Of a DNA stretch of 64,000 nucleotides, positions 1,844 to 38,986 are shown piece by piece. Under the pieces are notes generated by a model, which saw nothing but the letters and a program-made list of their open reading frames with translations, was not told the origin of the DNA and ran no database searches. The first letter of the stretch is position 1, and each line of letters begins with the position of its first letter. The DNA is from an uncultured Prevotellaceae bacterium (GTDB lineage: Bacteria > Bacteroidota > Bacteroidia > Bacteroidales > Bacteroidaceae): the NCBI GenBank assembly GCA_900315095.1, contig OMXS01000002.1, forward strand, positions 62,001 to 126,000, read 5' to 3'. Made by a program: the position numbers and the translations under genes.

Positions 1844-3388
1844 ATGAAGAAAAGAACGATATGGATGATAGCGACTGTGATGGGGCTTAGCTTCCTTGCT
1901 TTGCTCTTCTTGCAGCTCAGTTACATCGAAGAGATGGTGAAGATGAAAAAGGAGCAGTTCGATGAATCAGTCAAACGCTCGCTTTATCAAGCATCACGTC
2001 ATCTTGAGCTGAACGAGACACTTCGTTATCTGGAGAAGGATGTTAACCGAGCAGGGCGCCGCGCGGCAAGAAAAGACTCGGTGAACGGGCAGCAAGGCGA
2101 TGCTAAACAGGCATCACATCAGCTGGGAGCAGTGTCAAGCGGTGCTACTTATTCTTCATTCCAGTTAAAGTCGGTAAACATGAAGCCTGGGCAGATGCCC
2201 AAAGGCTTGATACTTCGCAACGACAAGAATGCTATTTCGGAGGCATCAAAGTCGATGAAGGAGATAGTTAAGAACCGTTATGTTTATCAAAAGGCTCTGC
2301 TCGACGAGGTTGTTTACAGTATACTTTATACCGCATCGGAAAAGCCTCTGCGTGAGAGAGTTAACTTCAATATGCTCGACAAGGACATTAAAGTGGAACT
2401 GACAAACAACGGAATCAATATTCCATATCATTTCACGGTGTCCACACAGGACGGACAAGAGGTTTACCGTTGTCCCGACTACACCGAAGAGGGAGAAGAA
2501 TACACATACATCCAGGATCTTTTTCAAAACGACCCTCAGCAGAAATCGGGTGTTGTGAAGATTCATTTCCCAACGATGAACAGTTACATTTTCTCCTCTG
2601 TACGCTTCATGATTCCTTCTGTGGCGTTCACGCTGGTGCTGCTCGTGACCTTCATCTTCACAATCGCTGTGATATTCCGTCAGAAACGACTGACCGAGAT
2701 AAAGAACGACTTCATCAACAACATGACTCACGAGCTGAAGACTCCTATCTCGAGCATCTCACTTGCTGCGCAGATGATGAACGACGAGGCTGTGACAAAG
2801 AGCCCTGCAATGATGAAGCATCTCGGTGGAGTGGTGAACGACGAGTCGAAGCGACTGCGATTCCTCGTGGAGAAAGTGCTGCAAATGTCAATGTTCGACG
2901 ACAAGACGGCAATCTTCAAGAAGAAAGAGCTCGACCTGAATGAGATGGTTGAAAACATCGCAAACTCTTTCTCGTTGCGCGTGGAGCATACAGGTGGCCG
3001 CATAAACACGTTGGTTGAAGCAGAGAACTCAAAGATATACGTTGACGAGATACACTTCTCCAACGTGATACACAACCTCATGGACAACGCGGTGAAATAT
3101 AAGAAGGAGGAAGGACCGCTGATTCTCGAGGTGCATACGTGGAACGCTGACGGCAAACTGATGCTCTCTATACAGGACAACGGCATAGGAATAAAGAAGG
3201 AGAACCTAAAGAAGGTGTTCGAGAAGTTCTATCGTGTACATACTGGCAACGTGCATAACGTGAAGGGATTCGGTCTCGGTTTGGCATACGTTAAGAAGAT
3301 CGTTGACCTGCATAAGGGTGAGATAAAGGTGGAAAGCACCTACGGCAAGGGAACAAAGTTCACCATCGCGCTGCCGGAGATAACTTGA
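1844..3388 (+). CDS. rprX: Membrane sensor histidine kinase RprX-like
   Basis: This 514-residue sensor kinase has a transmembrane helix at about 7-27, a periplasmic sensor region of about 230 residues and a second helix at about 258-280. The cytoplasmic core has an H-box with the phospho-acceptor His296 (MTHELKTPIS), an N-box (HNLMDNAVKYK), a G1 box (DNGIGI), an F-box (FEKFYR) and a G2 box (GFGLGLAYVKK). It autophosphorylates and passes phosphate to the regulator encoded 95 bases downstream. The pair matches my memory of Bacteroides RprX/RprY, a pair studied with respect to tetracycline and redox/metabolic regulation. The signal sensed is not evident. Confidence 0.9.
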   Translation: MKKRTIWMIATVMGLSFLALLFLQLSYIEEMVKMKKEQFDESVKRSLYQASRHLELNETLRYLEKDVNRAGRRAARKDSVNGQQGDAKQASHQLGAVSSGATYSSFQLKSVNMKPGQMPKGLILRNDKNAISEASKSMKEIVKNRYVYQKALLDEVVYSILYTASEKPLRERVNFNMLDKDIKVELTNNGINIPYHFTVSTQDGQEVYRCPDYTEEGEEYTYIQDLFQNDPQQKSGVVKIHFPTMNSYIFSSVRFMIPSVAFTLVLLVTFIFTIAVIFRQKRLTEIKNDFINNMTHELKTPISSISLAAQMMNDEAVTKSPAMMKHLGGVVNDESKRLRFLVEKVLQMSMFDDKTAIFKKKELDLNEMVENIANSFSLRVEHTGGRINTLVEAENSKIYVDEIHFSNVIHNLMDNAVKYKKEEGPLILEVHTWNADGKLMLSIQDNGIGIKKENLKKVFEKFYRVHTGNVHNVKGFGLGLAYVKKIVDLHKGEIKVESTYGKGTKFTIALPEIT

Positions 3389-12700: not shown

Positions 12701-14041
12701 TCAGCATGTCGTAAGACTGAGGATATCTCTCAGCAGCGCATTGAAGTCGATGACGTTGTCAGGCTTCGGGGAGAAGCCCAGGACAACCACTACCAACTCA
12801 TGCGAAGGGAAGATAAAGATGTCCTGACCGTCGTGGCCGTCGCAATAGAACATGTCCTTCGGCACATCGGGAAACTTGCTGTTTCCGTTCAGCCAGAAGA
12901 AAGCCCCGTAGTGTTCGCCACTGGCAGCAGCCGGTCTGCGCGTATAGTCCACCCATCCTTTCGGCAGTATTCGCTCGCTGTCCACACAGCCGTCGTCGAG
13001 GTACAGCTGTCCGAAGCGGGCGAAATCCCTTGCCGTGGCATAGAGATACGACGATCCCACAAACGTGCCGCTCAGGTCCTGCTCGAACACTGGTCTCACG
13101 ATGCCCAGCGGGTCAAAGAGCCGCGAGCGCATATAGCCGATAAATGCCTCTTCTGAAGGAAAGCGGCTGCGCAGATAGCGCATCACGATGTTAGTAGTGC
13201 CACTCGAGTATTGCCAGTATGTGCCAGGCTTGTGTTCTAGTGGCTTCGAGAGGGCATAGAGGCCCATGTCGCGTTCGCAATGCAGCATGATGTTAACGTC
13301 AGACCGTGCACCATAATCCTCGTTCCACTCCAGTCCACTCTGCATCTGCATCAGGTCGTGTAAGGTAATCGCCTTTCGTCCGTCGCCCTGCCATTCGGGA
13401 ATATCCATCGGTGCATGAATGTCCAGCAGACTGTCCTTCACCATCAGACCGATAAGTGCATTTGCAAAACTCTTTGCCATGCTCCAGCTTAGCAGCTTTG
13501 TGTCACGGCCGATGCCCTTGTCATAGCATTCTGCCACCACACCCCCCCTGTGCAAAACCACAAAAGCAAACGGATGTCCTTTATAGGCACGCTCGTCAAC
13601 GAAAGCCTTCGCTATGGGCGCAAGTCGTTCAGCCAAGGCAGAGTCGCCCAAAGAGAGTTGAGCGATGGAATCCTGTTTCCCTTGTCCTTCGCTAAGCACA
13701 CCCTTCGGGAACCGTTGCTCCCTCAACTCTTCAGCCGTGATACCGCGCAGCAAGGTGACACCGTAGCCCTCACGGTAAGCCGCAGTAGATTTGCTCCAAA
13801 GGAAGCGGCTGGTCACCGTCTTGTTCTCATAGTCCACCGTGTTGCTCGTGTAGCGGATGAGCGAGAAGTTCAGGTCGATCTCTTCCACATCCTTCGCCTC
13901 TCGTCCCGAAACGAACACAGCCGAGGCCAGATTCTTCGCCGCATAGCCCGTAATGATAGGCAGCAGCCTGTTCAGGTAAACACATCCCCCCACGATGGCA
14001 AGGAGCAATGCAATGGCAACATAGCGTAATACCTTTTTCAT
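12701..14041 (-). CDS. Membrane-anchored serine hydrolase of the beta-lactamase/class C family
   Basis: The 446-residue protein begins with a hydrophobic segment (residues 7-30) that includes a Cys at 20 in a weak lipobox context, so it is a lipoprotein or membrane-anchored. The S-x-x-K motif is SMAK (Ser187, Lys190), the second motif appears as YSSG, and a HDGQD stretch stands near the C-terminus. Such proteins include penicillin-binding-like carboxypeptidases, esterases and beta-lactamase homologues (6-aminohexanoate-dimer hydrolase type). Substrate is unknown. A -7 box TATCTTTG lies on the minus strand near 14110-14117. Confidence 0.85.
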   Translation of the reverse strand: MKKVLRYVAIALLLAIVGGCVYLNRLLPIITGYAAKNLASAVFVSGREAKDVEEIDLNFSLIRYTSNTVDYENKTVTSRFLWSKSTAAYREGYGVTLLRGITAEELREQRFPKGVLSEGQGKQDSIAQLSLGDSALAERLAPIAKAFVDERAYKGHPFAFVVLHRGGVVAECYDKGIGRDTKLLSWSMAKSFANALIGLMVKDSLLDIHAPMDIPEWQGDGRKAITLHDLMQMQSGLEWNEDYGARSDVNIMLHCERDMGLYALSKPLEHKPGTYWQYSSGTTNIVMRYLRSRFPSEEAFIGYMRSRLFDPLGIVRPVFEQDLSGTFVGSSYLYATARDFARFGQLYLDDGCVDSERILPKGWVDYTRRPAAASGEHYGAFFWLNGNSKFPDVPKDMFYCDGHDGQDIFIFPSHELVVVVLGFSPKPDNVIDFNALLRDILSLTTC

Positions 14042-14315
14042 AGCAAATCTGTTTGTTATATTTCTTAAGCAGGGCGTTTCCTGCTTCCCCTTTGGAGGAG
14101 TAAGGGCAAAGATAACAAAAAAACTATATACAATGCAAGAATAATCGCAGAAAAATCCGATGTACTACTTCTGAATTTACTCATTCTTTATTTGTAATTA
14201 TGCTGCAAGCAACATAGCGATAAGGAGACCAAGACCTTCTGCTGCCATCTTACCTTTCCACGAGTCATCTGTCAGTTTATGCTCAATGAAATAATCAAAA
14301 AAAACATGTTTTTAT
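14042..14315. other. Intergenic region at left edge of the accessory island
   Basis: Apart from the minus-strand promoter near 14110 no gene is supported. An open minus-strand frame ending at 14198 reads as a short hydrophobic C-terminus (SWKGKMAAEGLGLLIAMLL) without a convincing start, perhaps a gene remnant. Confidence 0.5.
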
Positions 14316-14346
14316 TTTGTATTTCGCTCCCTTCTTTATACCTTTG
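14316..14346 (+). promoter_or_regulatory. Consensus promoter driving the structured RNA
   Basis: TTTG at 14316-14319 and TACCTTTG at 14339-14346 are 19 bases apart. Transcription should start close to 14353, right before the structured segment. Confidence 0.85.
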
Positions 14347-14351
14347 TAACA

Positions 14352-14495
14352 TAATATCGCCTAATCGCCATAAACGGCAAGCCAAGGCAAGGCTGCGACT
14401 AAGCGAGAACAGAGTGATGCTAACATCAACTCTGTCAAGCTAAAGCAGGCTCGACCCTAGGTCAAATTCCTTGAGAGCAGGGTGGCGGTAAGATT
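14352..14495 (+). ncRNA. Predicted structured RNA, family not recognised
   Basis: The segment is GC-richer than its surroundings and folds by eye into a closed multi-branch structure. AUCGCC (14364-14369) pairs with GGCGGU (14484-14489). AGCC/GGCT (14380-14383 with 14391-14394) forms a hairpin. CGAG (14404-14407) pairs with CTCG (14450-14453) and encloses an 11-bp hairpin (14409-14419 with 14424-14435, loop CTAA, one bulged A). ACCCT/AGGGT (14454-14458 with 14479-14483) encloses TCAA/TTGA. It starts right after a consensus promoter and has no long ORF. I do not recognise tmRNA, SRP, RNase P, 6S or a known riboswitch. Confidence 0.55.
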
Positions 14496-14546
14496 TTCGT
14501 GGGTAAATAATAATAACAGCATTAGCAGTTATTCGACGTGCTTGGA

Positions 14547-14804
14547 ATGGTTGACAAGTCAAAACTTTGTGCCATTTTTGAGAAAGTAAAGAAAGAACTT
14601 CCTAACACTACTCAGTTCAAATTGAATGCTGGTAAATATGTTGGAACCTTCAACACGAAGAAGCTCTGGCATCTAACAGATCAAAGCGACTACATATTCT
14701 TCAAATACATGGATACGGATGCAGATTCTATCCAACAAATGGTCGAAAGTCATATTGCTGCATGTGTTTTAACAGACAAAGGAAATAGCAATGAACAAGA
14801 ATAA
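14547..14804 (+). CDS. Hypothetical small protein at head of helicase cluster
   Basis: The 85-residue product (from ATG 14547; a GTG at 14538 in the same frame is less likely) is mixed alpha/beta with no signal peptide or membrane segment. The stretch KYVGTFNTKKLWHLTDQSDYIF recalls, loosely, segments near the C-terminus of N6-adenine DNA methyltransferases. The frame continues in phase past its stop into a clear methyltransferase tail (14805-14909), so it may be part of the same decayed gene. Otherwise function is unknown. Confidence 0.5.
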   Translation: MVDKSKLCAIFEKVKKELPNTTQFKLNAGKYVGTFNTKKLWHLTDQSDYIFFKYMDTDADSIQQMVESHIAACVLTDKGNSNEQE

Positions 14805-14909
14805 AGAAGAGTCCTTGCGAAGCATTACGGATTCACAGAAGAAGAACTAGACTTCATTATCAATTACGACATCAAGTATCGTATGGGTGATGAATTGAAT
14901 GACAACTAA
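14805..14909 (+). pseudogene. Remnant of a DNA methyltransferase C-terminus
   Basis: In the same frame as the preceding ORF, after its stop, the translation reads HYGFTEEELDFIINYDIKY followed by RMG and ends at a TAA at 14907-14909. This is, from memory, the conserved extreme C-terminus of large N6-adenine methyltransferases of Eco57I/type IIG kind. There is no start codon of its own and no catalytic NPPY region nearby. I infer that a restriction-modification gene once stood here and was truncated. Confidence 0.55.
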
Positions 14910-14920
14910 TAAGAAAACTT

Positions 14921-17671
14921 ATGAAAGAAACATTAGCAGATATAGCTTGGGCTATAAACAATCATACGATAACGGAACATCAAAACATGCCTTGCCAAGG
15001 TGGTGTTGCTCGTTATTATGTGGATTTAGAAGAAATGCCAAATATTCATCAGATATTTCTAGCAAATGTGAAGGTGAGAAAACGTGTTTGGTATGGAGAT
15101 GATAGTATCAATATCTGGAAAAACTCGAAACTTGGAGGTGCTTTGATTATGAAAGGTATTGGTAATAGTATTTATTATGGAAATCGTCCACAACCCTATA
15201 AAATGAAGGTTTATAATGCTGCTAATTATCGCCATTGGATAACTGGTAGCATAGACCAGGTTCTAATCGAACAAGAAGATGGGAAAAAATATAGATTCGC
15301 TGATTTAAAAACTCTACTGAGCCAATTTCAGGAGGCGAGACGTCAGGCAGCTGAGAATCAAAAGCGCTTACGTGAACTCCAATTAGAACGAGAGGAGATA
15401 GAACGCCAGCAAAAGAAAGCTGCCGAAGAAGAAGCTTTACGCCTACAAAAAGAGCAGGAAGAAAACGAAAGAAGAACCCGGGAATATCAAGAAAAAGCAG
15501 AACTCTTAGAAAAAGAAATAGCAGAAACAAACGCAAAGATAAAGTTTATCAAGTCTTTCGTTAGAGATAGTTTAGAACTTCGCATTCAGCATATCTTGGA
15601 TCCAAGCCAAGAGGAAGCTAAGCGCTCGCATATCTATGACGATGTTCCAGTTCTTATAGATGGTGGTCCTGGTACTGGTAAGACTACCACTATGATTCAG
15701 AGGCTAAAGTTCTTGCTATCTGATGAGGCATTACGTGATTATACGAAGTTGTCGGATAAGGAAATTGACGAACTGACCAATCCTGCGACAATAAACACAA
15801 AATGGGTATTCTTTTCTCCTAATACTCTTTTATTGGAGTATCTTAGGAACAATATGAGAGAAGAGGAACTAATTGCAAATGATGGCAACACGTTTACATT
15901 AGAGCAGTTCCGAAAAAAAATGTTGTTGGAATATAAACTTCGAAATCCTGAAACAGATGCGCCTTTCAAGAATTACTCATCTAGAGAAGGAATAGCCCAG
16001 CCTCTTATTCTAAATGCGAAACAAACAATCTATGACTTTGAACATTTCTGCATAGATAATATAACGAGTATATTGCTTAAGGCATATAATTTGCCAACAG
16101 CTGACTACGAATGGCACTCTACGGCAGTAGAAATTAAAGCGTATTGCAAGAGAGCTGAGAACGTCAAGGATATGGCAGCATTGGTTAATTTGTTTAACTC
16201 GTTGCAAGATAACCAAAACAAGCACGTTAAGGAAATTGAGCAACAACTTGGGAGGTCTTTAGGTGCTGTGTCTGTGGAAGTGCAACAGGAAATACTCAAA
16301 GATGAATCAACTGTCAATGCTATTAAAGCCCTGTTAGAAAAATGGAATAAGGATTATTCGTTACAAAATGATGAAGAAATCCTAGAAACAGAAATGACAG
16401 AAGAGGACGATGTAGAGGACGAATCTAGTAAACTGAACTTTGAAGCCGATTTGTATAAGAGACTGAAGGCCCTAATACGAGCATTATCTATCAACAAAAT
16501 AGATTCAAAGAAAAAGCTAAGTGGTCGGCAAGCAGAACTATATAATGTTGTTTCAAGTCATATAAATGAAGATTCGCTCAAGAAGGTTGGCAGTTTGGCT
16601 TGGTTTGTTAAAAACTATGCTTCACTCACAAAAGGGATGGAACCAACTATCTTTAGCCAGATGCCTCGCCTTTACAAATTGTATCGTAAGAAGCAACTGG
16701 AAACGGCTTCTTCTAATTACGACCTCAGACTTTTGAAGAAGATCATTGAAAAAGGAGGTAACAAACATCTTCATGCCGATGAGCAGAATTTGCTTATTGG
16801 TTTTATCAATAATATGCTTTATCGGATTTACAAGCGTTCTTCCGTAAGATTCAATAACCTGAAGCACAAATATGCTTTGGCATACAAAGATTGGGTAAAA
16901 CCTGTTATTGGTGTGGATGAAGCAACTGACTATTCCATTCTCGATTACTACCTTATAAATTCATTTCGGCATTATCAATTTAATTCTGTAACGTTGAGTG
17001 GAGATATTATGCAAGGTATAACAGAGCATGGCATCAATGATTGGAAGGAATTGTCCAAATGGGTTTTACCAGAACTTACCAAATATGAACTGAAAGTAAG
17101 CTATCGTCAAACTCCAACCTTGGTTAATCTAGCACGAGAAATGTATAAAGATGAAGTAGACCATTATCCCTCATACAATTCAGATAAAGAAATGGATGAG
17201 AACAATGAGCCTGCTCCCATTGCCTGCGTATCAGATGATGAAGAGGAAAAAGCCGAATGGATAGCCAAAAGAATTATTGAAATCTATAAAGCATACGATA
17301 GCAAGATGCCGTCTGTAGCAATCTTTGTAGGTGATAATGTTGATGTCTCAAAGTTTATAAACATAATCTATGATACCGATTTGCTAAATGGTATCGATGT
17401 GGTAGATTGTACAGGTGGTCGATCACTTAACAGGTCAGATATTGTTAGGGTATTCCGTATCTCAGAGGTAAAGGGTATGGAGTTCGAGGTAGCATTCTTC
17501 CATAATTTAGATGAAGCATTGCATGGTAGAGAAAGTGGACTAATGATGAAATACCTATATGTAGGTCTATCTCGTGCAACTACGCATTTAGCCGCAACTT
17601 TCTGCGATCCTTATGAAGCTACTGATGTTTTAAACTATTTCGAGACTAAAGATAACAACTGGAAATTATAA
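14921..17671 (+). CDS. SF1 (UvrD-like) helicase with N-terminal coiled coil
   Basis: The 916-residue protein has a novel N-terminal region (1-125), a charged coiled coil (about 128-215, rich in Glu, Arg, Lys, Gln) and a superfamily 1 helicase core. Walker A is GGPGTGKTTT with Lys254; Walker B is a DEATD variant of DEAQD (Asp666, Glu667); late motifs include VSYRQTPTL, EVKGMEFE and YVGLSRATTH near residue 885. A helical insertion with an acidic patch separates motifs Ia and II. The protein resembles DNA helicases in defence islands. It follows the methyltransferase remnant by 11 bases and precedes the DprA-like gene by 6. Confidence 0.85.
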   Translation: MKETLADIAWAINNHTITEHQNMPCQGGVARYYVDLEEMPNIHQIFLANVKVRKRVWYGDDSINIWKNSKLGGALIMKGIGNSIYYGNRPQPYKMKVYNAANYRHWITGSIDQVLIEQEDGKKYRFADLKTLLSQFQEARRQAAENQKRLRELQLEREEIERQQKKAAEEEALRLQKEQEENERRTREYQEKAELLEKEIAETNAKIKFIKSFVRDSLELRIQHILDPSQEEAKRSHIYDDVPVLIDGGPGTGKTTTMIQRLKFLLSDEALRDYTKLSDKEIDELTNPATINTKWVFFSPNTLLLEYLRNNMREEELIANDGNTFTLEQFRKKMLLEYKLRNPETDAPFKNYSSREGIAQPLILNAKQTIYDFEHFCIDNITSILLKAYNLPTADYEWHSTAVEIKAYCKRAENVKDMAALVNLFNSLQDNQNKHVKEIEQQLGRSLGAVSVEVQQEILKDESTVNAIKALLEKWNKDYSLQNDEEILETEMTEEDDVEDESSKLNFEADLYKRLKALIRALSINKIDSKKKLSGRQAELYNVVSSHINEDSLKKVGSLAWFVKNYASLTKGMEPTIFSQMPRLYKLYRKKQLETASSNYDLRLLKKIIEKGGNKHLHADEQNLLIGFINNMLYRIYKRSSVRFNNLKHKYALAYKDWVKPVIGVDEATDYSILDYYLINSFRHYQFNSVTLSGDIMQGITEHGINDWKELSKWVLPELTKYELKVSYRQTPTLVNLAREMYKDEVDHYPSYNSDKEMDENNEPAPIACVSDDEEEKAEWIAKRIIEIYKAYDSKMPSVAIFVGDNVDVSKFINIIYDTDLLNGIDVVDCTGGRSLNRSDIVRVFRISEVKGMEFEVAFFHNLDEALHGRESGLMMKYLYVGLSRATTHLAATFCDPYEATDVLNYFETKDNNWKL

Positions 17672-17677
17672 AAATCC

Positions 17678-18121
17678 ATGGATGTGGAGTATCTTGGCAA
17701 CAAGGAACTGTTGAACCTGCCAAAAACGGCATTCCTGGCATCGAGTACCATTCCGCTTGATATGGTGATGAAGTGCTATGACTGGGCCTCATCAAAACAT
17801 GAGGGCTGTATCGTGGGTGGTTTCAGCAGTAAGTTGGAAAAAGACGTGCTTCATTTCCTGATAAAAGGGAAACAGCCTGTTATTATGGTATTGGCTCGCC
17901 AATTGTATAAGCAGATACCGCAAGAACTTCGGCCATTGTTGGAAGAGAACCGCCTGTTGATTATCTCTGTCTCAAATTCTGTACGTCAGTCAAAAGCAAC
18001 GGCCTTGGCGCGCAACCGCTATATCTGCGAAATGGCTGACAAAATCTTTATGGTGGGCGTTACCGAAAATAGCAGCCTATATGTCTTGCATAAAGCGTTT
18101 AAGAATAAGACTTCTTATTGA
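17678..18121 (+). CDS. DprA/SMF-like Rossmann-fold protein
   Basis: The 147-residue protein corresponds to the nucleotide-binding-like core of DprA/SMF: a GFSSKLEKDVLHFLIKGKQP block, an LLIIS strand and an ATALARNRYI helix with the Arg-rich edge that in DprA touches single-stranded DNA. Full DprA has N- and C-terminal extensions that are absent here. DprA loads RecA on incoming single-stranded DNA; short homologues also occur beside helicases in defence islands. It starts six bases after the helicase gene, so the two are almost certainly co-translated and may work on the same DNA. Confidence 0.72.
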   Translation: MDVEYLGNKELLNLPKTAFLASSTIPLDMVMKCYDWASSKHEGCIVGGFSSKLEKDVLHFLIKGKQPVIMVLARQLYKQIPQELRPLLEENRLLIISVSNSVRQSKATALARNRYICEMADKIFMVGVTENSSLYVLHKAFKNKTSY

Positions 18122-18215
18122 GTACATATTCAGTAATAATATCATCAATGATTAAGTCGATGGAATGCCGATTCTTACCAATACAACCTAAACGCATATA
18201 AAAACATTATATTTT

Positions 18216-18246
18216 TTTGGTAGTAAGGATATAATGGTTATATTTG
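18216..18246 (+). promoter_or_regulatory. Internal promoter before the J-domain-like gene
   Basis: TTTG at 18216-18219 and TATATTTG at 18239-18246 are 19 bases apart. It shows that the last two genes of the cluster can be expressed apart from the helicase. Confidence 0.75.
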
Positions 18247-18300
18247 CGGTCAGAAAGTTGACGCACCTCGAATGGGGTGGGATGTTATGATGTGTTATCT

Positions 18301-19155
18301 ATGAAAAAGTATAATCAGTTGACTGTAAGTCTGAGGAAGAGGCAGTTGCAAGAGGAATATGAGCGTCTGCAGGCTGAGTATTCTAATCTCATTGCTGTTC
18401 GCGATGAGATGGTGCAGGTCGAGGCTCCAAGACTGGAGGCAGTTTATATGGAGACTTTGGGACAACTGCAATATGAGGTTTTATCGCTGGAGTATGACAT
18501 CGCCCTACTGAAACTTGAGCGTGATTTGTTGCAATCCTACATAAATAGGGGCGAGAAACCTGACATTGAGGAGGTAGATGAAGAGGTGAGCAAGACGGCA
18601 GATGCTTATAATAAGACTCTGCACGAGGAGGAAGAGAAGATAAAAGAGGCGAAGGATTTCCTTGAACATCATTCAGAGAAAGATGCTGAACAGGATGCGC
18701 TGGAGAGGAGAGAATTGAAACAGTTGTACAAGAGCATGGTCCACAGACTTCATCCTGACTTGCATCCTGAGCAGACTGAATGGGAAAAGGAGTTGTTCCT
18801 AAAAGTACAGGAGGCGTATCGCACGGAAAATCTTGAGATGCTGCGCCAACTGGAAGAGAAACTAAATATTGGCATGCCTTCGTCTATGGTTAATAGTGAG
18901 ACTATTGAAGAACGGGAGGAGCGTGTAAGAAAACTAAAGGAGCAGATTGCACTATTGCAACAAGAAATTGAGGAAAGGAGAAACACTTTCCCATTTACAT
19001 ATAAAGAAAAACTATATGACAAGGAACTGATGTCTGCAATGCAGGAAGAATTGCGTGCAAGAATAGTTGCGCTAGAAAGGGAAAAGGAACGACTGATGAA
19101 AATAGTGGAGAAGATGAAAGGGAAGAAACATGGAAAACAGCATTGTAAAGATTAG
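18301..19155 (+). CDS. Coiled-coil protein with J-domain-like segment
   Basis: The 284-residue, highly charged protein is mostly coiled coil (about 5-135 and 200-284). Between the coils lies a segment with the HPD tripeptide at 151-153 (MVHRLHPDLHP) followed by VQEAYRTENLEML, which is the pattern of helices II-III of a DnaJ J-domain that stimulates DnaK. I use the ATG at 18301; the frame begins upstream with a GTG at 18277 that lacks support. Its end overlaps the HIRAN gene by 26 bases, which implies translational coupling. Confidence 0.7.
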   Translation: MKKYNQLTVSLRKRQLQEEYERLQAEYSNLIAVRDEMVQVEAPRLEAVYMETLGQLQYEVLSLEYDIALLKLERDLLQSYINRGEKPDIEEVDEEVSKTADAYNKTLHEEEEKIKEAKDFLEHHSEKDAEQDALERRELKQLYKSMVHRLHPDLHPEQTEWEKELFLKVQEAYRTENLEMLRQLEEKLNIGMPSSMVNSETIEEREERVRKLKEQIALLQQEIEERRNTFPFTYKEKLYDKELMSAMQEELRARIVALEREKERLMKIVEKMKGKKHGKQHCKD

Positions 19156-19522
19156 TCCTGAACTGCTGGAGATGCTTGGCTCAAGGTTGCCAAACAGCCT
19201 GCAGCCTTTCAGCCGAGAAATATTCTTGTTGGATATTGTTGTGGCAGGCACTTCTTTTTGTAAAAAGATGGATAAGATATATCCTGAACTGAATAAAGGA
19301 ACGGTTCTCAGAATGGAGCGACGCCCCAAGAACAGGTATGACAAGCAAGCCATAGCACTATATTATAAAAAGGTAAAGGTGGGGTGGGTTCCTAGAGAAC
19401 TCAACCTTGTGATTTCCAGACTTATGGATGCCGGTAAAGCGTTTTTCTGCCGTATTGAGGACGTGATGCTTGTGAACGACTATTGGGTAAAGATAGATGC
19501 CAAAATATATATGGTGGAATAA
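19130..19522 (+). CDS. HIRAN-domain protein
   Basis: The 130-residue protein carries a HIRAN fold in residues 35-128: FLLDIVVAGTSF, then LRMERRPKNRYDKQAIALYY and KVGWVPRELN. HIRAN domains bind 3' ends of single-stranded DNA at stalled forks in HLTF/Rad5 helicases, and stand-alone versions occur in bacteria. The first 34 residues resemble a short helical lead. It overlaps the J-domain-like gene and closes the cluster. The combination of a helicase, a DprA-like protein and a HIRAN protein points to a shared DNA-end or single-strand substrate (inference). Confidence 0.82.
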   Translation: MENSIVKISPELLEMLGSRLPNSLQPFSREIFLLDIVVAGTSFCKKMDKIYPELNKGTVLRMERRPKNRYDKQAIALYYKKVKVGWVPRELNLVISRLMDAGKAFFCRIEDVMLVNDYWVKIDAKIYMVE

Positions 19523-19612: not shown

Positions 19613-20004
19613 GGTCACATGGTCACAGCTGTGACCATGTGACCGCAGAGCGCAAGAAACACAGCATGATATGTATAACATGCTGATATACAAATACTTA
19701 TATCGACATAAGGATATGATTGTTGCGCGATAAATGGTCACACGGTCACAGCTGTGACCATGTGACCGCAGAGCGCAAGAAATATACATAATTTGTATAA
19801 CATACTGATATACAAATACTTATATTGATATAAGGATATAATTGTTGCGTGATAAATGGTCACACGGTCACAGCTGTGACCATGTGACCGCAGAGAAAAG
19901 GAGTGTGTATTCTTATATAACTTATTGATATACAGATATTTGCGGTTTGTAATATATCCTGTTGAGGACCGAGAGGTCACATGGTCACAGCTGTGACCGT
20001 GACC
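19613..20004. repeat. Tandem array of four 32-bp palindromes in ~120-bp units
   Basis: A perfect 32-bp palindrome built from GGTCAC, TGGTCACAGCTGTGACCA and GTGACC spans 19613-19644. Copies at 19736-19767 and 19858-19889 differ at one base, and a shortened copy lies at 19975-20004. Spacing is 123, 122 and 117 bases. The spacers are also conserved between copies 1 and 2 (GCAGAGCGCAAGAAA, then ATACAAATACTTATAT and TGTTGCG.GATAAAT), so it is a tandem duplication of a whole unit. No credible ORF is present. Confidence 0.95.
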
Positions 20005-20749: not shown

Positions 20750-20782
20750 TTTGATGTGTTTAAAAGAAATTGTGTATCTTTG
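20750..20782 (+). promoter_or_regulatory. Promoter of the LysR-type gene
   Basis: TTTG (20750-20753) and TATCTTTG (20775-20782) are 21 bases apart. It places the transcript start after the ATG at 20756, so translation must begin at 20816. Confidence 0.75.
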
Positions 20783-35460: not shown

Positions 35461-35515
35461 TGTTATATTTGATTATCTCTATAGGGAGTCCACTTGTATT
35501 GTTGAAGGAATCAAA
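35435..35515. repeat. 81-bp direct repeat, copy 1
   Basis: The sequence from TTTGTTCTTGAACTAACTAT to GAAGGAATCAAA is repeated at 36937-37017 with about 90 percent identity. Here it spans the start of the RHS relic and the end of the lipoprotein gene. Confidence 0.9.
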
Positions 35516-36105
35516 CCTGTCCCTCCGATTTCACTTACCATAAATTCATTGGGTTCATATGAGTATATCTTTTGGTCTTTTTTATCAATAAAATTACTTT
35601 TAAGTATTTCAATGTTATTAGGGACAACTAAAAAACCTTTGTGCCTCTTCAATTTCCCATTTTCATTATTCTTTTTATAAGTAAAAAGAGGGGATATTGA
35701 TTGTCTGTTTTTAATCTTGATTTTATTATTTGTAATTCGAAATAATGCCTGAGACACAGGTACTTCTGCCCACTGCAAACAATATATATATCCATCAATG
35801 ATTCGTTTGTTCTCATCTATTTTCAAAATTAACACATTATTGGTTTCAAAACTAGATTCCATACCTTGGTCATAACTAAAAGATAAAAATCTTGCCACTG
35901 TATACTCTCCTGGAACTGGATAAAATTCATTTTTCAATTTGACTCTTCCTATTGGGAAAGAATCTAATTTAGAAATCATGTCATAATTTATATCAGATTT
36001 CTGGGTAACTGAATACAAATAATATGGCAGATACTTTTCATCGTATCTAATACAACTAGAGAATATATACGACGTGAACAATAATATAATAATTATCTTT
36101 TTCAT
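35479..36105 (-). CDS. Lipoprotein of RHS island, unknown function
   Basis: The 208-residue protein starts with a signal peptide and a Cys near residue 17 (FSSC), which fits a lipobox. The body is beta-rich and polar and I do not recognise it. Base composition is clearly more AT-rich than the flanking core genes. Its position, transcribed toward the RHS relic, is typical for immunity or accessory genes left behind by cassette replacement. The last codons lie in the 81-bp repeat. Confidence 0.65.
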   Translation of the reverse strand: MKKIIIILLFTSYIFSSCIRYDEKYLPYYLYSVTQKSDINYDMISKLDSFPIGRVKLKNEFYPVPGEYTVARFLSFSYDQGMESSFETNNVLILKIDENKRIIDGYIYCLQWAEVPVSQALFRITNNKIKIKNRQSISPLFTYKKNNENGKLKRHKGFLVVPNNIEILKSNFIDKKDQKIYSYEPNEFMVSEIGGTGLIPSTIQVDSL

Positions 36106-36134
36106 ATTAATCTAATGCGAACGAAGTTTTTCGT

Positions 36135-36587
36135 TCACATAAAAAACTTTTTCACTTTTATATAAAACAAGCACAACAATAGAGTTATACAAATACCATA
36201 AACAATATTTAAGGAAGAGCCAAACCACCAAACTCTCTCATATACATCTATTCCCTGAACAGTCTTACGGAGCCACAACAGGTTGTCAGGAACGAATAAA
36301 TTAATTACATCGTATATATAAACGGTTATAATTACAAAGCAAATACTTTCTATAATGATTTCTGTTTTGGTGAATTTGTATTTATATAGTGGAATAATAA
36401 CTGCTAAATTATATATAGGATAAACTATACCAGAAATAAGTGCTGCAAAAACCGGTGAAGAAAAAGGCGTTTTTTCTTCAATGTTATTACAATAATCTAT
36501 AATAAGCGACCCGAACAATGCTACCAATGTAATTGCTATCACCGTCCACAAATAACTCCTTAATATATATAACAAGAAATTTTTCAT
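36135..36587 (-). CDS. Four-helix membrane protein of RHS island
   Basis: The 150-residue protein has about four hydrophobic helices (residues 10-32, 45-68, 78-97, 122-146) and small loops. It is AT-rich like its neighbour, which begins 29 bases further on. Small polytopic proteins are common as immunity partners of membrane-active toxins, but no toxin for it remains. I do not recognise a family. Confidence 0.6.
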   Translation of the reverse strand: MKNFLLYILRSYLWTVIAITLVALFGSLIIDYCNNIEEKTPFSSPVFAALISGIVYPIYNLAVIIPLYKYKFTKTEIIIESICFVIITVYIYDVINLFVPDNLLWLRKTVQGIDVYERVWWFGSSLNIVYGICITLLLCLFYIKVKKFFM

Positions 36588-36714
36588 TGTGAAAACACAT
36601 TAAAAGCCAATATGATTGCTCAAACTTTCATTCATTTTTCTTCTTTCTCTTTGGCGAGTTTCTGCAGATTCCCTTTGCTCTTTTGTCCAAGGCTTTACGC
36701 AGCCAAATCCTTGA

Positions 36715-36935
36715 GATCACGGGGACGGTTCTTTGATTCATTCTATATCCGTTGAATGATACCATAAGAGACACCTGTAATTCTGGAGAGTTGCCGTACC
36801 CCACCACCAAATTCCTTCAATGCTTGCAAAGATCACGGGGACTTGTTTATACTATATGGTGCAAAGATACTCTTTATTCTTGTTACCACCAAATATTCTT
36901 TATAAAAATGAGTCAAAGAACCGTCCCTGTGATTC
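36715..36935. mobile_element. Relic of a REP-associated tyrosine transposase element
   Basis: Ends of 25-26 bp (GATCACGGGGACGGTTCTTT... at 36715-36739 and its complement at 36910-36935) form an inverted repeat. Between them, on the minus strand 36832-36743, the frame reads LKEFGGGVRQLSRITGVSYG then IIQRI and a stop, which is the helix-turn-helix end typical of RAYT (Y1-type) transposases. The catalytic HUH part is gone. A third partial GATCACGGGGAC lies at 36831. Confidence 0.7.
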
Positions 36936-36936
36936 C

Positions 36937-37017
36937 TTTGTTCTTGAACTAACTATATGCATTGTTATATTTGATTATCTCTCTAGGGGGGACACTTGTA
37001 TTGTAGAAGGAATCAAA
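36937..37017. repeat. 81-bp direct repeat, copy 2
   Basis: Second copy of 35435-35515. On the minus strand it still encodes LIPSTIQV, the C-terminal residues of the lipoprotein, so it is the trace of a second copy of that gene. Confidence 0.88.
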
Positions 37018-37046
37018 AAACTGTCCCATCTAAGCAAAGTCCCTAT

Positions 37047-37520
37047 TTATTCTTTCCCAAACTCCTTCTGAACAGAGCACTCCCCGTCCACACTAATAAC
37101 ATGAAAAACATTAGAATATACAGTGCTTATCAATGCCTGATATAGTTTTCTTATATTGTATCTAAATCTATAAGTATTATCACACCCTTTCCTAAACATT
37201 GTTCTTTTTATTTCCCATTTTTCTTTTCTATCGCTTTCATTCTCTTTCAATATCATAACATTCTCAACCTTACGAATAGAGGGTATCTGGAAAATGTCTT
37301 CTGCAAATAATAGCCATTTATCATTAACTTTTTTTTCTAAAGATACAGATATGAGAACTTTCTCATCGCAATTATTTCTGAAATTAAAAGAAACAACATC
37401 GTTTATGGCATACTCTGTTTGTATGGAATCAATTTCTAAACAAGGTGCTGTTGACTGAGCGTATGTATAGAATACAAAGCCTTGTAATACAAGAAGCAAT
37501 AAACTTTTAATTGTTCTCAT
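37047..37520 (-). CDS. Probable periplasmic immunity protein for the Rhs toxin
   Basis: The 157-residue protein has a Sec signal peptide (about 1-21, ending YAQS) and a beta-rich body with paired Cys residues (PCLE, NNCDE, KGCD, DGEC), consistent with disulfides outside the cytoplasm. Its ATG at 37520 lies inside the last codons of the Rhs toxin gene, an overlap of 14 bases, which is the usual toxin-immunity arrangement. An exported immunity protein fits a toxin that attacks the cell wall. I do not recognise the family; the role is inferred from position and export. Confidence 0.65.
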   Translation of the reverse strand: MRTIKSLLLLVLQGFVFYTYAQSTAPCLEIDSIQTEYAINDVVSFNFRNNCDEKVLISVSLEKKVNDKWLLFAEDIFQIPSIRKVENVMILKENESDRKEKWEIKRTMFRKGCDNTYRFRYNIRKLYQALISTVYSNVFHVISVDGECSVQKEFGKE

Positions 37521-38667
37521 ATTTTTTAGTTCCTCCATTTGTCGAATGGTTTTGATTATTTCCATAATTTACAATAACATCTATTTTTGTATTTCCACTG
37601 TTGCGATATTCATTGAGTCTATCAAATAATTCAGTTTCCACCTCAGTACAGCCATGTGTATAACCTTTCTGAGAATCATGTAGATAATATGAATAATTAT
37701 CTCTTTCTGAATTTTTGGCTCCAGTTACTTTATCTGGCGCTAAATACGCACGATGTTTTCCCCATTCCGTATAAGTCCAGCCATACCCTTGCTTATTAGG
37801 ATTTTCTACAAAATCTGGGATTCTTTCTATTCCGCCATTTGGATCTCTCAACAAATCTCCTGTATTAATATCTGCCTTTGCAACCCTTTCTGGATTTGGT
37901 TCTAAATTGACATGGTACTTCCCTTCTGGGGTTGGACCACCATTCCTAACATTTTGATATTTAGCTTTTTGGAGATTCCATGTTTTCCCATTCGCATCAG
38001 GTCCTCTATACCCAGATGTTGCTTTATAAGTATCAATAAGATTTCTCTTATCGCCAGCCTCACCCCCATACCAACAAACAGCATTTCCAGTTACAAGAAG
38101 CCAATCTCTTCCGTCTAAATCAACCGCATTCACCGAGTTATTCATACAATAAACATACGGACTGACATGATAGTATTTCTCCGCCAGCGGATCAACGCTC
38201 GTCCATATAGGCACCCCTGCGACATCATACAAACGGGCACCGAAGTCGTACATGTTCAGGCCGTTCATCCTGTCAAGCTCCTTACCAGTGAAACGGTATG
38301 GATGCCGATCCTCCTCTGTCATCTGAGCCGGATCCTGCATCGTCATCTCACTGCCGAAGGGATAGTAGTTGATGGTTTCCCTAATATTATTGTTGCTATC
38401 AACTACCATCCTTGTACTGCCGAGGTGGTCGGTGACATAGTAGTTCCAACCTGTCGGGGCTCCGTTGTCGTCCAGATCCACATAGCCTCCGTCGAACTGC
38501 CACATCAGCGGCTCGCCGCCACGCAGGATCAGACCGTCAACATACATATCAGTAGTGGTCTTCTTTATATAGCCTGACACTTTGGGAAAGGACATCACAT
38601 GCCTGCTTGACAGTTTCCTGCCATCAGGCATATAATCATTGGTGATATTCCGCGGTCCTTTGCTCAT
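37507..38667 (-). CDS. Rhs core fragment with C-terminal DUF2778/L,D-transpeptidase-like toxin domain
   Basis: The 386-residue protein holds the last RHS repeats and the RHS core (YYVTDHLGSTRMVVDS, YRFTGKELDRMNGLNMYDFGARLYD, DPLAEKYY) up to about residue 162. The C-terminal domain (165-365) contains PTPEGKYHV, WGKHRAYLAP and LHDSQKGYTHGCTEV with His330, His338 and Cys340, a layout like Tlde1/DUF2778 L,D-transpeptidase-fold toxins that act on peptidoglycan. There is no signal peptide: the N-terminal bulk is missing. A promoter at 38707-38737 precedes the ATG at 38667, so this orphan end may still be expressed. Confidence 0.75.
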   Translation of the reverse strand: MSKGPRNITNDYMPDGRKLSSRHVMSFPKVSGYIKKTTTDMYVDGLILRGGEPLMWQFDGGYVDLDDNGAPTGWNYYVTDHLGSTRMVVDSNNNIRETINYYPFGSEMTMQDPAQMTEEDRHPYRFTGKELDRMNGLNMYDFGARLYDVAGVPIWTSVDPLAEKYYHVSPYVYCMNNSVNAVDLDGRDWLLVTGNAVCWYGGEAGDKRNLIDTYKATSGYRGPDANGKTWNLQKAKYQNVRNGGPTPEGKYHVNLEPNPERVAKADINTGDLLRDPNGGIERIPDFVENPNKQGYGWTYTEWGKHRAYLAPDKVTGAKNSERDNYSYYLHDSQKGYTHGCTEVETELFDRLNEYRNSGNTKIDVIVNYGNNQNHSTNGGTKKYENN

Positions 38668-38706
38668 GTTGTGGGACTTATAAGATAAGTTATTTGATTT
38701 TTTATG

Positions 38707-38737
38707 CAAAGATATGCAAAATATGTGATATGACCAA
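38707..38737 (-). promoter_or_regulatory. Promoter of the orphan Rhs-toxin gene
   Basis: TATCTTTG (38707-38714) and TTG (38735-38737) on the minus strand are 20 bases apart. It rules out the longer start at 38808. Confidence 0.65.
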
Positions 38738-38768
38738 GGTGTCTCATGAAAAACAAGGAAAAAATCAT

Positions 38769-38986
38769 TTAGCCCCCGCAAGCGTAGAAAGGTCGCCTTA
38801 CTCTTCATAGGTCATTACCTTACTCTACCCAAGGTGTTTGCACGCTTAAATAGTATGATTAGAATATGGATAGAGTGTGGTTGTAAATCACCAAAAATAT
38901 GGATAGAGTTTGCATTGTGCCTCTCCCTTTCATATTGTAACTGACAATGTGACTTCAATGTAATCTTTCTACGCTTACGGGGCTAA
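38769..38986. mobile_element. 218-bp element with 22-23-bp terminal inverted repeats
   Basis: The left end TTAGCCCCCGCAAGCGTAGA (38769-38791) is the complement of the right end (38965-38986) except for one mismatch and one inserted base. Inside are two copies of AATATGGATAGAGT. No ORF is present. It is a MITE-like element at the upstream edge of the orphan Rhs gene. Confidence 0.75.

Follow-up and report, generated by a model that had tools for sequence, protein, structure and literature searches.

Four genes that run in one direction across an AT-rich part of a 64,000-nucleotide stretch from an uncultured Prevotellaceae bacterium (assembly GCA_900315095.1, contig OMXS01000002.1, positions 62,001 to 126,000; hereafter the window) raise the question of whether they belong together, and what they once belonged to. 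They encode a superfamily 1 (SF1) helicase, HEL, a small DprA-like protein (DPRA), a J-domain-like protein (J-like) and a stand-alone HIRAN protein, and a preliminary description of the sequence proposed that the four make up one undescribed defence system. Here we present a comparative reading that splits the set in two: HEL and the DprA-like gene are read as the 3′ remnant of an operon whose order is a PLD-SNF2 helicase-nuclease gene (PLDH), a type IIG-like methylase gene (MT), a slot for cargo genes and the DprA-like gene, while J-like and HIRAN form a unit of their own beside it. Together with the mechanism proposed below, this is the explanation that we favour and consider reasonably probable. 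The defence setting suggested by the preliminary description is upheld.

The DNA ahead of HEL carries the argument. Its matches run, in sequence, from the PLDH leader of L011 through the C-terminus of the L147 MT to the conserved MT tail (Table 1; L and G numbers are our own for loci and genomes), and therefore the window is read as a PLDH-MT operon with an internal deletion. The matching part of L011 (3092-3145) is upstream of a PLDH that starts at 3365, and a second PLDH leader, that of L104, matches window 14507-14535. The junction, placed by these alignments between 14536 and about 14552, joined the promoter and the start of the leader to the last MT codons, so that PLDH and most of MT were removed while the operon promoter, HEL and the DprA-like gene were retained. 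Genome G000 gave no match to PLDH at E <= 1e-80 and none to a full-length MT at E <= 1e-50, only 14547-14903 being left of the latter. Position 14547, which the preliminary description took as the start of the region, is thus a real sequence feature, but it marks the methylase remnant and not the helicase. The order in L011 is PLDH, MT (split over two frames), 13 bp, HEL, an antisense frame and the DprA-like gene; in the window, HEL starts 11 bp past the end of the MT frame, and MT tail, cargo and DprA-like gene likewise lie on one strand. The two HEL proteins are 90% identical, with a dN/dS of 0.05-0.07. At the nucleotide level, the window and L011 share 84.6% identity over the MT tail and HEL and 71.6% over the DprA-like gene, a difference that is compatible with, but does not prove, an exchange of cassettes through recombination at the conserved tail.

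Profiles run on the proteins of L109, L105 and L107 identify PLDH as a PLD-SNF2 helicase and MT as an Eco57I-type methylase. PLDH was sought in 400 family genomes, with scoring limited to the two best first-look candidates of each, which gave 20 matches in 19 genomes; MT was sought in 201. At six of the 20 PLDH loci the contig or match ends too early to show the 3′ end of MT; the other 14, with two further readable MT loci of G077, make up a scorable set of 16. All 16 carry a DprA-like gene downstream of MT on the same strand, seven of them at a distance of -7 to +3 bp (G419, G352, G151, G048, G049 and G077 twice) and nine after 285-5286 bp (G169, G453, G403, G124, G340, G056, G005, G402 and G121, the interval in the last holding only a 79-codon frame). 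As an internal control, PLDH and MT are 2-51 bp apart in 13 of the 14 loci, the exception being G340, where the MT start is missing. A search at the level of the taxonomic order covered 393 genomes, 20 of which have a DprA-like match at E <= 1e-12; 14 places were examined and four matched genomes were left out. Five places have PLDH-MT-cargo-DprA (L147, L149, L152, L155, L157), L151 has an MT end, cargo and DprA-like gene, and L154 holds a diverged relative and an extra MT tail. These places give no test of how constant the DprA-like gene is, because they were located through it.

Compared across these loci, the MT/DprA-like junction reads as a slot that is empty or holds differing genes, several of them known defence genes, and that holds HEL in the window. 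The slot of L157 contains a complete Gabija pair (GajA, E 5.8e-170; GajB, 1.1e-127) and that of L152 an NYN protein matching HEC-09 (1.8e-93). Schlafen AlbA_2 proteins are found in L103, together with RhuM and DUF4145, and in L151, together with DUF4062; DUF2971 (L106), DUF3644 (L147) and a ParA-type ATPase (L149) are further profile matches. The NYN-like proteins of L155 and L184 were read by eye, as were the slot genes of L183, L187 and L188, while the slot genes of L100 and one each in L106, L147 and L149 matched none of the families tested. In L014, the interval from MT to the DprA-like gene is occupied by HEL together with three small genes. The same locus has tandem units at 13698-15678: the MT tail recurs there as a second and a third piece, the second followed by a nucleotidyltransferase/HEPN pair and the third by another DprA-like gene, with DNA identities of 89-91% among the MT tails and 86% between the DprA-like copies.

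Several observations weigh against an operon remnant with a cargo slot. A scan of genome contigs for HEL gave at least 42 loci, with flanks of up to 10 kb, several shorter, and L045-L052 as partial matches; among the 42 listed, HEL is in the exact MT/DprA-like slot only in L011 and L014. By tblastn, four of the 42 have a DprA-like gene or part of one: it lies downstream of HEL in these two loci and upstream in L031, and L027 has a fragment. The other 38 show none, and the preliminary description had itself named separate occurrence of these two genes in most genomes as a refutation of its proposal. No MT was found in the stretch examined at seven of the 14 order-level places (L148, L150, L153, L156, L158-L160), and none was seen upstream at five of 14 strong stand-alone DprA-like loci (L098, L099, L102, L110 and L101, the last cut by a contig end); therefore, the DprA-like gene also lives elsewhere. 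Conversely, PLDH-MT occurs without a DprA-like gene in the three plasmid records examined of 559 with a PLDH match, all outside Bacteroidota (Pelobacter, Anabaena and Synechocystis), so the core does not depend on it for its existence. Several relatives also show broken frames, namely MT in L011, L105 and L147 and PLDH in L185. On the supporting side, HEL also occurs near diverged PLDH and MT relatives (L015, L016, L045, L048). In the Synechocystis plasmid pSYSX (L231, 8001-18545), two genes lie between PLDH and MT, one of them small and the other for a VapC-type toxin, and a ThiF/E2/multiubiquitin operon is located downstream, facing PLDH and MT.

The intact operon would be a restriction-modification (R-M) system: MT would label the cell's own DNA, and the PLD-SNF2 protein would move along DNA that lacks the label and cleave it. 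The small DprA-like protein may bind single-stranded DNA or the enzyme and so restrain or redirect PLDH, on the model of H. pylori DprA acting on a restriction enzyme and of RqlI acting on the helicase RqlH; such restraint would explain why the DprA-like gene is kept and stands last in the operon. The H. pylori protein is reported, in the part of PMC4489622 consulted, to inhibit the restriction enzyme and to stimulate the methylase. A cargo gene would be co-transcribed with the operon and could supply a second response when restriction fails, and HEL, with a coiled coil ahead of its motor, might work on the ends of DNA or on complexes that have stalled. Within the window, HEL and the DprA-like gene could be read from the operon promoter and possibly work as a helicase/DprA pair, while J-like and HIRAN may recruit a DnaK-type chaperone to DNA ends.

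HEL was described beforehand as a helicase and its neighbour as DprA-like; both identities are recognisable, but both fall below the Pfam cut-offs. HEL scores 24.9 bits against AAA_19 (cut-off 25.1) and 22.0 against UvrD_C_2 (27.4), and the helicase motifs are invariant in an alignment of 24 sequences. The DprA-like protein, small and single-domain, scores 22.9 bits against DNA_processg_A (29.6) and 15.9 against the NCBIfam equivalog dprA (191). HEL is matched in 4 of 201 family genomes and the DprA-like protein in 29, its own genome counted here and in the figures for J-like below; many of the weaker DprA-like matches are larger DprA-type frames.

For the window taken by itself, the main rival to the remnant reading is that HEL and the DprA-like protein act alone as a toxin/antitoxin-like pair, a genotoxic helicase restrained by its neighbour, for which the restriction operon was only the place of pick-up. 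The 6-bp gap, the intactness of both genes despite the loss of PLDH and MT, the low dN/dS of HEL and the PsyrA match of the DprA-like protein (Table 1) speak for such a pair, as does the naming of DprA homologues as antitoxins in shosTA, syrTA and rqlHI in the parts of PMC9122126 and PMC4670107 consulted. We nevertheless consider it unlikely: 38 of the 42 listed HEL loci show no DprA-like gene, the 16 scorable family loci have one without HEL, the helicase fits SF1 and not RecQ models, and in L011 an antisense frame separates the two genes. Rather less probable is that the two genes are neutral debris, genes of a defunct restriction operon that still await decay. The loss of PLDH and most of MT and a stop within the MT-derived frame would be expected of debris, but HEL and the DprA-like gene are full-length frames with helicase motifs, the promoter is retained, and dN/dS is low, though that value mainly covers a branch on which the operon was still intact.

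A slimmer chance is given to HEL being a HelD-like motor that works on RNA polymerase and not on DNA. HelD is known for an N-terminal probe and a clamp-opening insertion. The closest sequence neighbours of HEL with known structure are HelD (6yxu, E 5e-10) and UvrD, and therefore a polymerase role is possible; the top NCBIfam match is HelR (37.9 bits, E 6e-10), HelD scores 30.8 bits (below its cut-off of 1051), and a coiled coil can be seen by eye ahead of the Walker A motif. The HelR score, however, is far below its cut-off of 1100 and limited to motor stretches, and the context is one of restriction genes.

The other half of the set begins after a 155-bp gap. On re-reading, the four genes do share a direction, with 6 bp between HEL and the DprA-like gene and 26 bp of overlap between J-like and HIRAN, just as first described. 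GC content is 0.38-0.41 across 14-20 kb; the immediately preceding DNA has 0.53 and the DNA that directly follows 0.45. A strict pattern, TTTG-N17-23-TAnnTTTG, which we take to be the Bacteroidota-type promoter consensus, was sought on both strands, and within 13.9-20.8 kb it occurs three times on the + strand (14316-14346, 18216-18246 and 20750-20782) and not at all on the - strand; the whole window has three sites on + and five on -. The three + strand sites precede, in turn, the HEL unit, the J-like gene and a LysR-type gene, and therefore the gene set probably consists of two transcription units, HEL and DprA-like at 14.35-18.12 kb and J-like and HIRAN at 18.25-19.52 kb. The second site is the internal promoter that the preliminary description had claimed, found here as a consensus match.

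The stand-alone HIRAN domain was called correctly, its score being well above the Pfam cut-off. The J-domain call holds in part: the HPD motif is conserved in six of seven aligned sequences (HPL in L097), but the DnaJ score of 22.7 bits is below the cut-off of 27.8. Judged against L007, ATG 18301 is a likelier J-like start than 18277. J-like is matched in 8 of 400 family genomes (2 of 61 in a smaller set) and is directly followed by a HIRAN gene in G227 (L007; 80% and 92% identity for J-like and HIRAN), in G075 (L091; 53% and 73%) and in G082 (L096), where the adjacent HIRAN is 31% identical and a second one 55%; HEL and the DprA-like gene are not beside the pair in any of these three genomes. 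From these arrangements, J-like and HIRAN are read as an independent two-gene unit adjoining HEL and the DprA-like gene. L092-L095 have J-like without a HIRAN match. The LysR-type gene, looked for in G227 as an empty-site comparison, was not found there. L096 (7041-10598) reads WYL regulator, J-like, HIRAN, a 170-residue gene and the second HIRAN gene, and in L097 (7960-9579) the J-like coiled-coil region is fused to an ADP-ribosylglycohydrolase.

That all four genes form one undescribed defence system, as the preliminary description held, is very improbable and is rejected, since the genes differ in genome distribution: shared direction, short gaps and the match of HIRAN to the PADLOC candidate PDC-M03B (E 1.9e-9) are outweighed by separate promoters for the two halves and by an order seen in the window alone, J-like and HIRAN being absent from all 42 listed HEL loci (tblastn with the window proteins) and all 14 strong stand-alone DprA-like loci and never found with HEL or the DprA-like gene in the other loci searched. 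The comparison with PADLOC that was envisaged beforehand yields only weak or partial matches for the four proteins. A phage or plasmid origin was also rejected. For J-like, phages and plasmids gave no matches and viral contigs gave four, all distant (23-31%); the DprA-like protein has no plasmid matches and one relative in viral contig L225; for HEL, viral contigs hold two 43% relatives and a weak one, and the plasmids listed give partial matches of at most 34%.

A decayed methylase (14547-14903) and a repeat array (19613-19895) beside the genes are both present, as first reported. The array, a 122-bp unit repeated 2.3 times in tandem, lies between HIRAN and the LysR-type gene and includes the palindrome GGTCACAGCTGTGACC. 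Farther along, 35479-38808 is AT-rich (GC 0.33 in 36-38 kb) and carries on the - strand, at 37507-38808, what by eye is an RHS-repeat-like core fragment adjoined by small secreted or membrane frames.

Table 1. Features of the window (first nine rows) and examples of the leader RNA in other loci.
Feature	Position	Strand	Basis
Putative Bacteroidota-type promoter of the former PLDH-MT operon	14316..14346	+	TTTG-N19-TACCTTTG; consensus as assumed in the text
Operon leader remnant, 5′ of the structured leader RNA	14481..14535	+	85% identical to L011 3092-3145
MT C-terminal fragment	14547..14801	+	50% identity over 76 residues to L147 MT C-terminus, E 1e-23
Conserved 32-residue MT tail	14808..14903	+	94% identical to L109 MT residues 1063-1094
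HEL, SF1 (UvrD/HelD-like) helicase, 916 aa, cargo gene	14921..17671	+	profile matches, helicase motifs
Small DprA-like (SLOG-type) protein, 147 aa, terminal operon gene	17678..18121	+	DNA_processg_A E 5e-5; PsyrA E 3.5e-9
Putative promoter of the J-like/HIRAN unit	18216..18246	+	TTTG-N19-TATATTTG
J-domain-like protein between two coiled coils	18277..19155	+	DnaJ E 1e-4
Stand-alone HIRAN protein	19130..19522	+	Pfam HIRAN PF08797, 47.2 bits (cut-off 24.7)
Leader RNA, L011	3138-3305		
Leader RNA, L104	14625-14797	-	
Leader RNA, L165	1258-1435		

Upstream of PLDH, a structured RNA often, though not always, leads the operon. Nine of 25 distinct PLDH leaders (the A4 group) carry an element of 163-185 nt that ends 49-65 nt before the PLDH start codon (133 in L014). 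Selected stretches from three leaders fold with z scores of -7.0, -7.6 and -10.3, and a fourth stretch with -2.3. In helices P1, P2 and P5, 96.7% of cells are paired against 80.1% in shuffles, and double changes occur in 16 of 24 pairs, a result reached in 0 of 500 shuffles. A covariance model, R1, hits 97 of 141 family genomes at E <= 0.001, with as many as nine matches in a single genome. In 31 of these matches (L007 and the 30 best-scoring loci), pairing reaches 97.3% of cells and double changes affect 21 of 24 pairs, a result reached by 0 of 500 shuffles, in an alignment that was fitted to the model and leans towards it. At 14 of the 30 loci, the first gene after the match is for restriction or DNA methylation, as judged for seven from Pfam and for the other seven from similarity to the first seven; in L220 it is weakly restriction-like, in L211 GIY-YIG-like (T5orf172), and at the remaining 14 it is of another kind. 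The restriction share is biased upwards, because R1 was built from restriction leaders and the 30 loci are its best scorers. The enzymes downstream include PLD-SNF2, HsdM, D12, EcoRI-type and Eco57I-type methylases. The operon after the L007 match is type I by eye, the HEL locus L042 also has a match, and L016 has a weak one (36.6 bits) just upstream of its diverged PLDH. The window has none, only DNA 5′ of the element being left. By these alignments, the element appears to be a strongly covarying RNA that stands before PLDH and before unrelated restriction operons.

Against an RNA, further pair types in the main helices are unremarkable (50 and 51 of 500 shuffles), six leaders with structure (z -3.0 to -9.3; L107, L109, L171, L175, L176, L182) were not assigned to the A4 group, and ten leaders reach no better than about -2 (L105, L147, L149, L152, L155, L157, L169, L170, L180, L181), these z scores being based on 25 shuffles each. 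An Rfam identity for the leader RNA or its remnant was rejected, the hits being miRNA models with weak scores and, outside the leader, a tRNA and two models below threshold: two leaders searched at E <= 1 gave one miRNA model (E 0.18), and 20 loci at E <= 0.01 gave three matches, none within the leader. A second conformer, in which the 3′ hairpin P6 excludes P1, has modest support (covariation 0.285 against 0.215, 1 of 500 shuffles; double-change pairs, 75 of 500) and suggests a switch. Thousands of candidate RNAs are described in the part of PMC8040213 consulted, and this leader may be among them.

If the leader is real as a switch, one signal would control restriction operons of different types. 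The wider proposal, that Bacteroidales restriction operons of unrelated type share a bistable on/off leader RNA, that the PLDH-MT-DprA slot takes up and exchanges entire defence systems and that the window shows what was left, HEL and the DprA-like gene under the bare promoter, once the RNA switch and the enzymes had been deleted, is put forward tentatively. The literature searched, including the parts consulted of PMC12839542, PMC2292703 and PMC2864571, yielded no description of the DprA-bearing operon, its slot or the leader RNA. An operon remnant with a cargo slot would explain the puzzling gene set of the window and give many stand-alone DprA-like genes of Bacteroidales a home as the last gene of a restriction operon. 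The slot would be a fixed nesting place for known systems such as Gabija, and reading its contents a direct route to new defence genes.

The closest known systems include the type IIG-like R-M systems with an HKD/PLD-Snf2 partner. The L109 MT matches the PADLOC model REase_MTase_IIG PDLC03628 over its full length (E 6.5e-272), and PLDH resembles C3a139 HKD+Snf2 (E 4e-56); the differences are the DprA-like third gene with the cargo slot before it and, in the window, the absence of PLDH and MT. The L109 PLDH falls short of the DISARM DrmD class, scoring 144.2 bits against a cut-off of 610. Type-2 DUF499-centred BREX-related systems likewise combine an N6-methylase with an HKD-nuclease/Swi2-Snf2 helicase effector and, in the part of PMC12839542 consulted, are proposed to act like restriction-modification, but their third core gene is the DUF499 ATPase; no large DUF499-like gene was noticed between PLDH, MT and the DprA-like gene, where no DUF499 profile search was made. 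In RqlHI, PsyrTA and ShosTA, too, a helicase or effector gene has a DprA-like neighbour, whereas here the DprA-like protein is small and single-domain, the helicase is SF1 and not RecQ-like (PADLOC gave no PsyrT matches) and the pairing is inconstant. Gabija shares a UvrD-like SF1 helicase in a defence setting, and a complete Gabija pair sits in one of the slots, but membership of HEL was rejected, as it has no GajA partner (no ATPase/TOPRIM neighbour by eye) and a GajB match of 15.9 bits. Accessory genes such as prrC-like ones are nested in type I R-M operons, which thus resemble this operon in carrying extra defence genes within a restriction operon; the difference here is that they occupy a fixed slot, between the MT tail and the DprA-like gene.

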